Shown one piece after another: positions 1 through 54,908 of a stretch of 54,908 bases of DNA. The stretch's first letter is position 1. Every line of letters starts with the position of its first letter. Position numbers and translations under genes: made by a program. This DNA comes from Terramyces sp. JEL0728 (Eukaryota > Chytridiomycota > Chytridiomycetes > Rhizophydiales > Terramycetaceae). The notes beneath the pieces were generated by a model. The model saw nothing but the letters and a program-made list of their open reading frames with translations, was not told the DNA's origin and ran no database searches. The stretch spans positions 1 to 54,908 of the forward strand of contig JADIIU010000087.1 of assembly GCA_027603945.1 (NCBI GenBank), in the 5' to 3' direction.

Positions 1-73
1 TTTTACTGGCACATTCTTTTACAATTTAATATTTGTGAAACTTTGAAACCCCCCAATCTGAACCTTGAAAAAA

Positions 74-892
74 ATGTCAAGAATCAGGATTTTCAAGAGA
101 TTCAACTCCACACATTTCGGATTCAGACAGGTAGACGCCAAAGAAAAAGAATCACTAGTCCGCAACGTATTCGAATCAGTTGCGCCATCATACGACATCA
201 TGAACGGTACCCATTGCTAATGTAGACGTAATGTCTGGTGGTGTACATCGGTTATGGAAAGACCACTTTATCTCAAAACTATCTCCAACAAATTCCACAA
301 AACTGCTTGATGTTGCGGGTGGAACAGGTGATATCGCATTTAGATTCATTGACAAGATAAGAAAGGAGTATGGGACTGACCCGGATGTGCGTGTACTTGA
401 TATCAATGAAAATATGCTGCAAGTTGGCAGAGAACGAGCAGAGAAAAGAGGATACGAATTGGAATTCATTCAAGGAAATGCAGAACAGCTGCAATTTGAA
501 AATGATAGTTTTGATGCTTATACTATTGCTTTTGGTATTAGAAATTGCACTCATATTGATAAAGTACTGTCTGAAGCTTACCGCGTACTTAAACCCGGCG
601 GTAGATTCATGTGCCTTGAATTCTCGCATGTCGAATCGCCGTTAATCAAGAGTAAATACCGTCTAATTTAGCTGCTTACGACTTGCATTCATTTTATATG
701 ATTCCAAAGATGGGTGAATTGATTGCGAATGATAGGGAGTCGTATCAGTATTTGGTTGAATCAATTAGGAAATTCCCAAAGCAAGCAGAGTTTAGTGAAA
801 TGATTAGGAATGCTGGGTTCAAGACTGTCGGTGATGGTTACGAGAATCTGACATTTGGTGTTGCTGCTATTCATTCCGGATATAAATTATAA
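74..892 (+). CDS. COQ5: Ubiquinone biosynthesis C-methyltransferase COQ5
   Basis: SAM-dependent C-methyltransferase that methylates the benzoquinol ring in ubiquinone synthesis on the matrix side of the inner mitochondrial membrane. Exons are 74-206, 226-651 and 672-892, giving 259 aa. The 19- and 20-nt introns are forced because the family motifs lie in different frames: THFGF near residue 15, [15 protein letters not shown] across intron 1, the SAM-binding loop [30 protein letters not shown], then [13 protein letters not shown] and IHSGYKL in the last exon. The N-terminus ([13 protein letters not shown]) is basic and hydroxylated, as in a mitochondrial presequence. An in-frame stop lies upstream, so the ATG at 74 is the first possible. 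The stop codon overlaps an AATAAA. Length matches the family after a short presequence. Confidence 0.93.
207..225 (+). other. 19-nt spliceosomal intron (type example)
   Basis: GTACCCATTGCTAATGTAG. It separates the halves of the COQ5 motif YDIMN|DVMSGG and must be removed to keep frame. It shows the layout common to this window: GTA donor, a CTAAY branch-like motif and a TAG acceptor with about 5 nt between them. The positions of all other introns are given in the individual gene entries. Confidence 0.93.
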
Positions 893-1082
893 TAAATTTG
901 TCGATCAATTGCAAGTTCTCGATGGGTGGATCAAGAACGCAATGCTTGTATTAAAGGCGCATTAAGTATGAGTCACTCAATAGCTGCCTACTAATGAATG
1001 GGAAAGAATACAGCAAATCCGAATTCCCGACGGGCCAAAACGTATAAATTCCGCACAGATGAATCAAAATTAATTTACCCGA

Positions 1083-1846
1083 ATGAACAACTGGACTGGA
1101 AATACAATCTTGATCACTGGCGGAGGTACCGGTATCGGCCTGGCATTTGCAACACGACTACTAAAAGATGGAAACAAAGTCATCCTGGTAGGAAGAAGGA
1201 AAGATGTACTGGAAAAAGCAAAACAAGAAACACCTAGTTTCGAGTACATTGTAGGAGACGTCGGTACGGAACAAGGCCGACAAGATCTCTACCAAACAGC
1301 AATCGCAAAATATCCTGCTCTGAATGTGGTGATCAACAATGCAGGTATTCAACGTCCTGTTAGTATTCAAACCCCTGGTTCAGACTGGAAAACTGTGCAA
1401 TCAGAGATAGATATAAACTTGGGTGCACCAATTCATCTATCTATTCTATTCAGCAGCCATTTGTTGAAACAACCACATGCCGCGATAGTTAATGTGACTT
1501 CTGGGTTGTCGTTTGTCCCATACGTAAATTGCCCTGTTTATGCGTCTACGAAAGCCGCATTGCATTCATTCACTTGGTCACTGCGAACTCAATACAAAAA
1601 CACCAATGTTAAAGTAATTGAAATTGTCCCGCCAGCTGTAGATACAGGTGCATGGTATTAACAGTAGATCTTCAAGCTGCTGGGCTGCACAAGTTTGGTG
1701 TCAACGTGGACGTATTTGCTGATTCTGTTTATGCAAGATTAAAGAATGGCGAGGAAGAAGTCGGATTTGGGTTTGCTGAAGAGTCACGACTAAAGTTCAA
1801 GGATGCGTTCGGTGCTACCTTTGAAGCACTAAACAGTCGTCATTAA
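1083..1846 (+). CDS. Short-chain dehydrogenase/reductase (DltE-like)
   Basis: Classical SDR oxidoreductase of 247 aa; exons 1083-1647 and 1668-1846 with a 20-nt intron. The N-terminal nucleotide-binding glycine motif TGGGTGIG is at residues 13-20, NNAG near residue 88, the catalytic Ser in the VNVTSG stretch, and YASTK supplies the Tyr-x-x-x-Lys pair near residue 158. The segment after the intron (DLQAAGLHKFGV) matches the C-terminal region of the DltE/YciK-type SDRs. Substrate is unknown. There is no signal peptide, so it is probably cytosolic. The stop codon is followed directly by TAAA, making an overlapping AATAAA. It lies 43 nt upstream of the UBX gene on the same strand. Confidence 0.88.
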
Positions 1847-52188: not shown

Positions 52189-53673
52189 ATGAAAAACTGG
52201 TCTCGTCAATACCAAATCAAGACCCCAATAGCCTACGTTCACGAAGAAGAGGATATTCCGAAAGCAATCAAATCGGCGATAAAACATGGAACCAGAGTCA
52301 GAGCTATGGGATCTTTGTACAATTTTGCAAATGTGGTAGAGCCGTTGAAAACTGGAAAAGTGTTCCACAAAGATCATTTGCTGTCTCTGGAACATTTCAA
52401 TAAGGTGCTCTCATACGATGAAGAAACGGGGGATATTACCTGTCAAGGAGGATTGAAACTAAAAGATCTAAACGCGCAATTGGAACTGTATGGAAGATTA
52501 CTGCCAAATTATGGTAATGTTGACGGGCAAACGCTATGTGGATTAATATCAACTGGTACCCATGGAAGATCGCTCAATCAAGGCAGTTTCTCCAGTAATA
52601 TCCGGTCACTCAGATTTTATGATGGCTTGGGAAATAAACGGACCCTCGATTTCGATTCTACGGATCCAGAAACTGTAGAGTTATGCGATGCAGTAGGACT
52701 CTCAGTTGGTATGCTTGGAATCATTTCTGTAATCACATTCAAAACTATTCCATTGTACTATTTGCGAATGATTAATTCACCACAAAAACTTGATTGGGTA
52801 ATTGATCATTGGCAAGAACTAAATGAAAAATCAGACTATGTAGAGATCTCATATTTTCCTATCCTTGATATGTGTATTGTTGGCCGAAGTGAAAGACTCT
52901 TTTTGGCAGAACACGAAAATGCACATTTGGATGCTCCAGGACCTTATAGAAGAAACGCAGAACGGCCTCATTATCTCAAAGTTATGTTGGAAGCAATTGT
53001 AGGACTGTGGTATTTGTCTACTTTCCTATTCAATTTCAAATTTTTCAGAAAAATGTATTATAACGTGTATCAAAAAGCTTTGAATACGAATGAAGCTGAA
53101 GAGTATATCTCAATGGTAGCCAGTTCCTAATAGTAGGCAGATGATGTCATTATTGAAAATGACAGCTTGGAACTCAGACATATTGAGATGGATATCTGTT
53201 TTGACTTTGAACAAGGGCCTGAATTTCTAAAGAGGATGCAGCAGTACTTTAAAGGTAATCCCAAAAGAACAGTTAATCCTGTTGTGGATATCAGGTGCTC
53301 CAAAGAAGAACGGTTCCTGCTATCAGGTGCTTACAAAAAAAGAGCTTTCTGGGCAGACTTCTTGTGTATCAGATACGGATCAAAGAAAAATTCCCAGTAC
53401 CACCAAGAAATTCATGATTTTTTCAAAGATTTGGGATTCAAGCGCCATTGGGGAAAACATTCTTGCATGACTCCGCAAGAAGTGAAAGAAGTGTATGGCA
53501 AAAACTTGGAAAAGTTCTTGGCAATCAAACAAGAATTGGATCCAAAAGGTGTTTTCAAAAATGAATATCTTGAAAACTTGATCAGCTCGTCGCCAATTTC
53601 TAAAGTTGCTAATGCTAAAAGAAAGAAGAGTGGAAGAGTTGCTGTCGCAGAATATGATTCTGATGAAGACTAA
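52189..53673 (+). CDS. ALO1: Aldonolactone oxidase (D-arabinono-1,4-lactone oxidase family), copy 1
   Basis: VAO-type FAD enzyme making a vitamin C-type antioxidant. Exons 52189-53115 and 53137-53673, 487 aa; 21-nt intron. FAD domain: RVRAMGSLYNFANVV, GNVDGQTLCGLISTGTHG, VGLSVGMLGIISVITFK. C-terminal ALO domain: HIEMDICF, FWADFLCIRYG, KRHWGKHSC (HWxK catalytic motif). Where fungal ALO has a GSGHS motif with a His that carries covalent FAD, this protein has GSLYN, as in plant GalLDH where the position is Leu. Non-covalent FAD is therefore likely. An acidic tail (EYDSDED) follows a basic run. The stop overlaps AATAAA. Confidence 0.9.
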
Positions 53674-54405
53674 ATAAATGTACATCTATTGTATTCATAT
53701 ACGATTTCCAGTGAATTTAACCGTACTGCCCTATTATCCTTTATAGCTACTGGTAATTTCAATATTGTTGCCAATATCTACTATCGCCAAGATATGGTAC
53801 CAAGATCTCTTTTCGCTCAATTTTGATTCTGGTGGACGTGGATATCAAGGATGGATCATTTACCACACAAACAAAGAGAAACTAACCGTTACTTTGTCAA
53901 TGAAAAACTGGGCAAAGCAGTATAATATTAAAACTCCTATTACACATGTACGGGAAGAAGAGGATATCCCTAAAGCTATAAACCACGCGATTCAAAACGG
54001 AACAAGAGTCCGAGCAATGGGATCGCTGTACAATTTTGCAAATGTAGTAGAACCAATGAAGTCGGGAAAGGTATTTCATAAAGATCATCTGCTGTCACTC
54101 GAGAAATTCAACCAGATGATTTCTTATGACCACGATACTGGTTATGTTACCTGTCAAGCTGGAATGAAGCTAAAAGACCTTAATGCACAGCTGGAATTGC
54201 TGGGGAGGCTACTCCCAAACTATGGTAATGTAGACGGACAAAAGTTATGTGGGTTAGTATCAACGGGTACCCATGGAAGATCGCTCAATCAAGGCAGTTT
54301 CTCCAGCAACATTAAATCTTTGACTTTTTACGATGGTACTGGGATTAAACACTTTCTCGATTTCGATTCTACGGATCCAGAAACTGTAGAGTTATGCGAT
54401 GCAGT
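52555..54405 (+). repeat. Identical blocks shared by the two ALO copies
   Basis: A 41-bp block at 52555-52595 is identical to 54266-54306, and a 50-bp block at 52645-52694 is identical to 54356-54405. Flanking coding sequence differs at many synonymous sites, a pattern expected from gene conversion. Confidence 0.8.
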
Positions 54406-54908
54406 TGGGTTATCAGTCGGGATGCTTGGTATCATATCGATCGTTACATTCAAGACAGTACCTTTATACTACCTGCGAACAATCAATTCACCGCAACAGC
54501 TGGACTGGGTAATCGCAAATTGGGAAGAGCTGAATGAAAAATCAGACTATGTTGAAATCTCGTATTTCCCAATACTTGACTTGTGTATCGTAGGTAGAAG
54601 TGAAAGGGTCATACTAGAAAAGCACACAAATCCCCATCTGGATGCACCTGGCCCATACTGGCGAAATGCAGAACGACCGCATTATCTCAAAGTGATGCTT
54701 GAAGCGATTGTGGGCTTATGGTATGTCTCTACATTCTTTTTCCACTTTAACTTTTACAGAAAAAAGTATTTCAAGGTCTTTAAACAAGCTCTGAACACTG
54801 AGCGCGCTGAAGAGTACATTTCAATTGTAAACCAAAATTAATAGCAGGCGGACGATGTCATTATTGAAAATGACAGCTTGGAGCTCAGACATATTGAAAT
54901 GGATATCT
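53900..54908 (+). CDS. Aldonolactone oxidase, copy 2 (partial, cut by window end)
   Basis: Tandem paralogue of the preceding gene, same strand, 226 nt downstream. Exons 53900-54826 and 54848 to the window end; the 21-nt intron is at exactly the same codon (SI|ADD versus SM|ADD) but with different sequence. The FAD region again has GSLYNFANVV in place of GSGHS. Encoded residues are largely conserved (VNVDG-type YGNVDGQKLCGL, THGRSLNQGSFSSN). About 130 C-terminal residues lie beyond the window. An in-frame ATG at 53765 would add 45 residues of unlikely sequence. Confidence 0.9.

Follow-up and report, generated by a model that had tools for sequence, protein, structure and literature searches.

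The stretch of DNA studied here, contig C87 of the assembly of Terramyces sp. JEL0728 (54,908 nucleotides (nt); the whole stretch is called the window), carries protein-coding genes interrupted by very short segments with the features of spliceosomal introns. Terramyces is placed in the Rhizophydiales (Chytridiomycota), and its assembly comprises 15,016,339 bases on 231 contigs. An earlier note on the window had described a uniform population of 19-22 nt introns, and this was borne out: the only length peak lies at 19-22 nt, and all 57 accepted introns of the window, distributed over 24 genes, fall within it (17, 25, 12 and 3 at 19, 20, 21 and 22 nt). The sizes given in the note's tally of 62 introns in 26 genes (20, 27, 11 and 4) thus stand, while the counts had to be revised.

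Genes and introns of the window

The list was obtained with a gene finder run under a prior favouring 19-22 nt and was then corrected by homology. The run gave 56 calls in 24 genes (17, 25, 11 and 2 at 19 to 22 nt, and a single one of 37 nt). Two of these calls, both weak and in the same gene (49437-49455 and 49610-49628), were dropped; the 37-nt call, which removed the conserved YNWER of IFT80, was replaced on homology by a 22-nt GC-AG intron at 37099-37120; and two introns of a DPH4-like gene that the finder had missed were added, together with one stop-free 21-nt motif within an exon. The genes and their introns are as follows (intron lengths in nt in brackets; the basis is the gene finder unless more is stated).

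74..892, + strand, COQ5: introns 207-225 (19), 652-671 (20); finder and 4obw alignment
1083..1846, + strand, presumably short-chain dehydrogenase-like: intron 1648-1667 (20)
1889..2863, + strand, presumably a UBX-like protein: introns 2118-2137 (20), 2153-2171 (19), 2510-2528 (19), 2637-2656 (20)
3107..4707, - strand, taken to be a zinc-finger protein: intron 4139-4158 (20)
4897..5336, + strand, taken to be a DPH4-like J-domain gene: introns 4981-4999 (19), 5055-5073 (19); open frame after removal
5387..7473, - strand, PCCA: introns 7296-7314 (19), 6548-6567 (20), 6174-6194 (21), 5444-5463 (20); finder and human PCCA chains
10694..11435, + strand, Thr-rich secreted-type protein: intron 11208-11226 (19)
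13242..13937, + strand, secreted-type paralogue 1: introns 13289-13309, 13452-13472, 13627-13647 (21 each)
14078..14652, + strand, secreted-type paralogue 2: intron 14255-14274 (20)
15626..16251, - strand, secreted-type paralogue 3: intron 16037-16056 (20)
16458..17104, - strand, secreted-type paralogue 4: intron 16890-16909 (20)
22308..27093, - strand, NPHP3_N and WD40 protein: introns 26833-26853 (21), 24943-24961 (19)
30545..31821, - strand, acetylornithine aminotransferase: introns 31460-31478 (19), 31091-31109 (19); finder and 2ord
32002..33012, + strand, presumably ERV41/ERGIC-like: introns 32133-32153 (21), 32270-32289 (20), 32488-32509 (22); candidate hidden intron 32623-32643, a stop-free 21-nt motif in an exon (basis: motif only)
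34180..34818, + strand, presumably tyrosine-phosphatase-like: introns 34472-34490 (19), 34535-34554 (20)
34846..37325, + strand, IFT80: introns 34883-34901 (19), 35145-35163 (19), 35454-35473 (20), 35702-35722 (21), 36267-36286 (20), 36621-36640 (20), 36906-36925 (20), 37099-37120 (22, GC-AG); finder and homology
37345..37859, + strand, gene without assigned family: introns 37597-37616 (20), 37692-37712 (21)
37900..39587, + strand, coiled-coil-type protein: introns 38179-38198 (20), 38289-38308 (20), 38378-38396 (19), 39105-39124 (20), 39417-39435 (19)
40900..41162, + strand, small protein: intron 41056-41075 (20)
41193..44356, - strand, eEF3: introns 43779-43798 (20), 43069-43088 (20), 42397-42418 (22); finder, deposited protein and orthologues
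44698..46094, + strand, zinc transporter (Cation_efflux): introns 44866-44885 (20), 45034-45054 (21), 46008-46028 (21; least certain)
47612..48078, + strand, thioesterase: introns 47817-47835 (19), 47933-47951 (19); finder and 4ord
50636..51144, - strand, protein of unknown kind: intron 51112-51131 (20)
52189..53673, + strand, D-arabinono-lactone oxidase family: intron 53116-53136 (21)

Intron length and geometry

The length distribution was determined in a sample consisting of the window and 200 kb of contig C1 (254,908 base pairs (bp), 1.7% of the assembly). A motif-free scan searched for GT..AG segments that break the open frames on either side when retained but leave them joined when removed, and four other dinucleotide pairs served as controls. 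The frame-restoring GT..AG segments numbered 32, 77, 40 and 26 at 19, 20, 21 and 22 nt, compared with 10-17, 13-26, 5-11 and 8-22 for the control pairs, and between 12 and 120 nt no other length stood out. A gene finder for which all intron lengths from 14 to 100 nt were equally likely, run with a stiffer penalty because the first settings had been too permissive (2,154 'introns'), made 329 calls in the whole sample, and 247 of these, the core introns, were at 19-22 nt (53, 122, 53 and 19); four were at 23 nt, and the remainder amounted to about one per length. The strict motif GTA..YTRAY..YAG occurred 197 times at 19-22 nt versus 12.6 times in shuffled sequence, and of the strong donor-acceptor pairs that restore the frame, 53 lay at 19-22 nt, or 13.3 for each length, compared with 0.05-0.32 for each length in the bins between 24 and 600 nt. 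The genome may have a few introns of 23 nt, a length with four finder calls and no strong pair. On the 1.7% of the genome covered, the introns are thus uniformly ultrashort (below about 35 nt), with a narrow range and no longer class beyond a possible minor one.

Several individual calls deserve mention in their own right. A 17-nt candidate intron, GTAAGATTTAATCCTAG, is found at locus L020 (+ strand, 0-based position 5677), and one of the four 23-nt calls has GC-AG ends. Two calls of 40 and 42 nt are candidate back-to-back intron pairs of 20+20 and 21+21 nt with no exon in between (L025, - strand, 0-based 7624, and L028, + strand, 0-based 6214).

The core introns share a tight geometry. Their ends are GT-AG in 246 of 247 cases and GC-AG in one (locus L033), these being the only ends the finder looked for, and phases 0, 1 and 2 are represented by 120, 74 and 53 introns. 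The donor is GTA (92% A at +3), followed by A (57%) at +4, T (45%) at +5, where G is the usual base, and T (60%) at +6. A YTRAY motif lies near the 3' end of 186 core introns; the branch A is at position 14-16 in 181 of them, 5-6 nt follow it in 173, and both hold in 172. The common forms, given as position of the branch A plus tail, are 14+5 (47 introns) at 19 nt, 14+6 (49) or 15+5 (39) at 20 nt, 15+6 (21) or 16+5 (6) at 21 nt, and 16+6 (10) or 15+7 (4) at 22 nt. These positions show two rulers that would set intron length, because a branch A at 14-16 and a tail of 5-6 nt add up to 19-22 nt. The distance from donor to branch, put at 11-13 nt in the earlier note, has to be corrected to 13-15 nt from G1 to the branch A. 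The interval between the branch and the AG is too short for a polypyrimidine tract, and the stretch upstream of the branch is T-rich.

It should be noted that introns of 21 nt without an in-frame stop are invisible to a frame-based reader, because a gene finder must read them as exon. The in-frame stop present in all 53 called 21-nt introns was therefore rejected as a signal of selection, since a scan of the exons did find stop-free ones. On the sense strand of predicted exons, the strict motif occurs nine times at 21 nt, compared with 0-4 times at each of the other lengths between 15 and 30 nt and once on the antisense strand, which suggests that about eight net stop-free introns are hidden in the exons of the sample. 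Two of the nine were compared with PDB chains: in the insulin-degrading enzyme (IDE) gene, read-through adds exactly seven residues that are absent from the two PDB relatives shown, which supports this intron, and the GCN2 case could not be judged. With 23 stop-containing strict-motif introns of 21 nt and about eight net stop-free ones, the stop-free share would be 26%, compared with an expectation of 38% derived by changing 20- and 22-nt introns to a length of 21 nt, so that any depletion appears to be mild at most.

Homologues, duplicate copies and the splicing machinery

Removal of the introns restores protein families, as the earlier note had stated for eEF3, COQ5, PCCA and IFT80. With its three introns removed, eEF3 is 100% identical over 1033 amino acids to the deposited HDV01_007518 of Terramyces sp. 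JEL0728, and none of the 16 orthologues aligned (16 of the 119 other matches listed) has a gap within six residues of any of the three junctions. Comparisons with PDB chains revealed no gap at any of ten junctions, namely two in COQ5 (4obw, the COQ5 of the PDB), four in PCCA (human PCCA chains), two in acetylornithine aminotransferase (2ord) and two in the thioesterase (4ord). For IFT80, aligned with 26 of 120 listed matches, an automatic count found 23 of 25, 25 of 26 and 26 of 26 rows gap-free at three junctions, and the YNWER of the family is kept once the 22-nt GC-AG intron is adopted; this second GC-AG intron rests on homology. The DPH4-like gene can be read from its ATG (4897) to a stop, including HPDKS...IQQAYQVLSD, when both 19-nt segments are removed.

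Independent evidence comes from a duplication. Contigs C199 and C111 have 3.1 kb in common at 98.9% identity (copies L011 and L012), and the only two indels within genes, of 1 nt each, both lie inside predicted introns (21 versus 20 nt); the other internal indels fall between two convergent genes, and the encoded proteins are identical over the shared part. A segment can thus gain or lose a single base harmlessly, which fits sequence that is removed.

The IFT80 proteins of relatives were compared residue by residue for 16 of the 120 listed proteins, counting internal deletions of at least three residues; among these 120 of 877 matches, no Terramyces name was present. The deposited IFT80 of Globomyces sp. 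JEL0801 has four internal deletions (8, 17, 9 and 9 residues). Those of 8, 9 and 9 residues abut junctions of the Terramyces protein (residues 93.3, 447.3 and 704.7), a pattern that would arise if annotation had widened an intron of 20 nt to about 45 nt; the deletion of 17 residues adjoins no junction. The Polyrhizophydium protein has two deletions, one of them across junction 558.7, and a four-residue insertion at junction 447, and the Gorgonomyces protein has one deletion, away from the junctions. The other 13 have no internal deletion, and several lack the N-terminus; the Kappamyces protein starts at residue 144 and a metagenome protein at 188. Among eight eEF3 proteins compared, no such deletion was found at any junction. 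The pattern in IFT80 suggests that the ultrashort introns may predate Terramyces. The expectation that standard annotation would break most genes was followed up for two genes, with a mixed outcome: the deposited eEF3 model is exact, but no Terramyces name is among the IFT80 matches listed, and the deposited Globomyces IFT80 is missing 8-9 conserved residues at three junctions. In deposited proteins of related genomes, conserved residues may be missing where introns lie, or seven spurious residues may be inserted.

Of the spliceosome components named in the earlier note, U2 and U2AF were examined, and both look ordinary, as does YJU2. The U2 small nuclear RNA (snRNA) was found as a full-length match (140 bits) with an intact branch-binding stretch, GUGUAGUAUCU. 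U2AF2 gave a six-frame match at C2:44938-46279 (251.7 and 27.9 bits) that crosses four stops and, being interrupted by introns, falls short of the cut-off of 310 bits for the whole protein; the spliced model is of full length, can be aligned with the N-terminal, RRM1-RRM2 and UHM chains of U2AF, and has four introns of 19-20 nt itself. The N-terminus of YJU2 is conserved, as it is in Stentor according to an excerpt of the study of that ciliate (PMC9505925).

U1, U4 and U6 went undetected although U2 was an easy match; no conclusion is drawn from this because the assembly may lack them, or their genes may be interrupted or divergent. Two weak U6 matches (27 bits, on C199 and C111) lie within a protein-coding gene that is duplicated and do not represent U6, a weak U4 match (20 bits) was rejected, and a 15-mer match with one mismatch was not located on the printed strand, the family scan of its locus showing no U6. 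RED_N had no match in Terramyces, but it had none in any control genome either, so the lack of a match does not show it to be absent.

Further observations concern individual genes. Five adjacent, similar secreted-type proteins at 13242-17914 of the window have 3, 1, 1, 1 and 0 introns, a cluster useful for the study of intron gain and loss. The 1582-codon gene at 22308-27093 combines NPHP3_N with WD40, presumably resembling the fungal NLR/STAND architecture. Lactone-oxidase-family genes stand in tandem at 52189-54841, the second model having 314 codons versus 488, and for a 626-amino-acid open reading frame of the window a homology search gave no homologue. Elsewhere, two near-identical copies of a WD40 gene about 5.8 kb apart on contig C184 (L005 and L006) differ by 37 substitutions; from L005 to L006, 32 of these are G>A or C>T, in CpT (11), CpA (10), CpC (6) and CpG (5) contexts, a one-sided pattern, in a chytrid, that resembles repeat-induced point mutation or deamination.

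Interpretation and comparison with known systems

We regard it as highly probable that these segments are U2-type spliceosomal introns of a chytrid, which we take to be free-living, that have shrunk to a near-minimal and uniform size. Removal by a spliceosome, as the earlier note had it, is what the sequence features point to: GT..AG ends, the spacing of YTRAY, the intact U2 stretch, the restored families and the tolerance of indels inside the segments. The branch motif would pair with GUAGUA of U2, given its presence in 186 of 247 introns and the unchanged U2 stretch. In the proposed mechanism, a largely conventional spliceosome would choose the splice sites by intron definition; U2 would pair with TTAAY or CTAAY; the AG 5-6 nt past the branch would be used without a polypyrimidine tract between the two; and the T-rich stretch from donor to branch would form a lariat loop of about 14-16 nt. 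Deletion pressure may have pushed the introns to the lower limit of the spliceosome, perhaps before Terramyces and Globomyces separated.

Several points weigh against this interpretation. The survey covers 254,908 of 15,016,339 bp, and the splice-site profile was initially trained on 19-22 nt candidates. Four runs with permuted splice-site columns still yielded 142, 17, 117 and 41 calls at 19-22 nt, probably because the scrambled columns keep GT, AG and A/T richness. YTRAY is absent from 61 of the 247 core introns, and in the window the flat prior gave 57 calls with 46 at 19-22 nt, adding 11 others of 14, 26, 33, 36, 37, 68, 68, 86, 88, 93 and 97 nt. The deposited eEF3 model may itself be purely computational. 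The automatic gap-free count is zero at five of the eight IFT80 junctions; at four of these, the alignment columns were opened by N-terminal insertions or by insertions in the rows of distant proteins, and eight relatives mostly align cleanly there, Globomyces lacking residues at one; the fifth is the junction of the mistaken 37-nt call. Removal of the segments from RNA is itself inferred, and U6, sought in five ways, and U1 and U4, with one search each, were not found in the assembly.

The shortness of the segments and the undetected U1, U4 and U6 would also suit a different process, in which translation bypasses or repairs the segments, by programmed frameshifting or ribosome hopping, or in which they are removed from the DNA. 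The GT..AG ends, the branch motif at fixed spacing, the phase bias and the intact U2 stretch are hallmarks of spliceosomal introns, and we know of no fungus in which ribosomal hopping over 20 nt takes place at dozens of sites; this process is thus very improbable. Systematic insertions by assembly or base calling are more improbable still, to the point of being negligible: no point in their favour was found, whereas motif and length are consistent, removal restores frames and families exactly, and the deposited eEF3 has the spliced form. Somewhat more weight, though still little, is given to real ultrashort introns accompanied by a substantial, missed class of ordinary introns of 40 to more than 100 nt. 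Such a class would account for the 82 of 329 calls outside 19-22 nt, for the strict motif at 23-45 and 46-79 nt, each about 1.9 times the shuffled level (195 versus 104 at 46-79 nt), for the 12-13 occurrences each at 16, 34 and 37 nt versus 2-3 in shuffles, and for the strong frame-restoring pairs of 24-600 nt, which total 162 versus 52 and 84 in two permuted runs. However, permuted columns give as many long finder calls (93, 97, 96 and 92 at 24-100 nt, against 74 with the real columns), and the surplus of pairs is spread over the lengths, as expected of true donors paired with the acceptors of other introns, to which it is ascribed. The sole long call in a conserved gene of the window proved to be a 22-nt intron, in line with the earlier statement that none is longer; that statement has to be relaxed in so far as a few 23-nt introns are possible and a minor class of longer introns may be present.

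If the segments are ultrashort spliceosomal introns, their nearest known counterparts are those of Stentor, the mikrocytids, the Bigelowiella nucleomorph and Paramecium; the earlier note had named Bigelowiella and Stentor correctly, but mikrocytids, Paramecium and Trichomonas, the last with introns as short as 23 nt (PMC12316389), belong on the list too. Introns of the Bigelowiella natans nucleomorph, at 18-21 nt (PMC10245619), have a near-identical uniform size range but belong to a relict endosymbiont nucleus, whereas those of Terramyces lie in the nuclear genome (15 Mb) of a fungus. In Stentor coeruleus, the branch A is nucleotide 10 in introns of 15 nt and nucleotide 11 in those of 16 nt, and altered branching factors have been proposed (PMC9505925); both organisms are uniform, and by our comparison the tail after the branch is similar (5 nt versus 5-6 nt), but in Stentor the loop from donor to branch is shorter and a strong consensus at the branch is lacking, in contrast to the branch A at 14-16 and the clear YTRAY of Terramyces. 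The mikrocytids likewise combine a very narrow size range (16-17 nt; 224 introns in Mikrocytos mackini) with conserved motifs (PMC10245619), but they are parasites with a strongly reduced spliceosome, whereas Terramyces has 1.23 core introns per kb of predicted coding sequence and has kept U2AF2. In Paramecium, ultrashort introns are also the normal size (more than 95% at 20-34 nt), but lengths divisible by three are depleted (PMC11334263), whereas in Terramyces 21 nt is common and stop-free 21-nt introns seem to occur. Among fungi, Cryptococcus neoformans has short introns as a norm, with a mean of about 56-63 nt and a small population below 40 nt (PMC11913375, PMC8476143), which is about three times longer than in Terramyces and of broader range. 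Among the openly licensed papers listed by a literature search, none reported introns of this size in a fungus, and the excerpted part of the survey of 644 fungal genomes by Lim et al. 2021 mentions no such case (PMC8476143).

The wider proposal, which we hold with moderate confidence, is that a free-living fungus whose spliceosome looks conventional and contains U2AF has essentially its whole intron set at 19-22 nt, and that this state is common to part of the Rhizophydiales. It would have gone unnoticed because annotation widens the introns into exons or reads the stop-free 21-nt ones as protein. As the 5-6 nt tail is the same as in Stentor, independent lineages would have reached the same floor, with only the donor-branch loop differing.

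Thus, a striking intron population of a kind already known from a few unrelated protists is well supported in a fungus. It would place the ultrashort-intron state within the Fungi, in an order with comparable members, so that the change could be dated and its causes tested. The human A complex occupies 79-125 nt of RNA, according to an excerpt of the relevant study (PMC8363638), and the Terramyces introns test how a spliceosome with an A complex of that size accepts introns of 20 nt. Terramyces therefore provides a new system in which to study the smallest intron size that a spliceosome can process.

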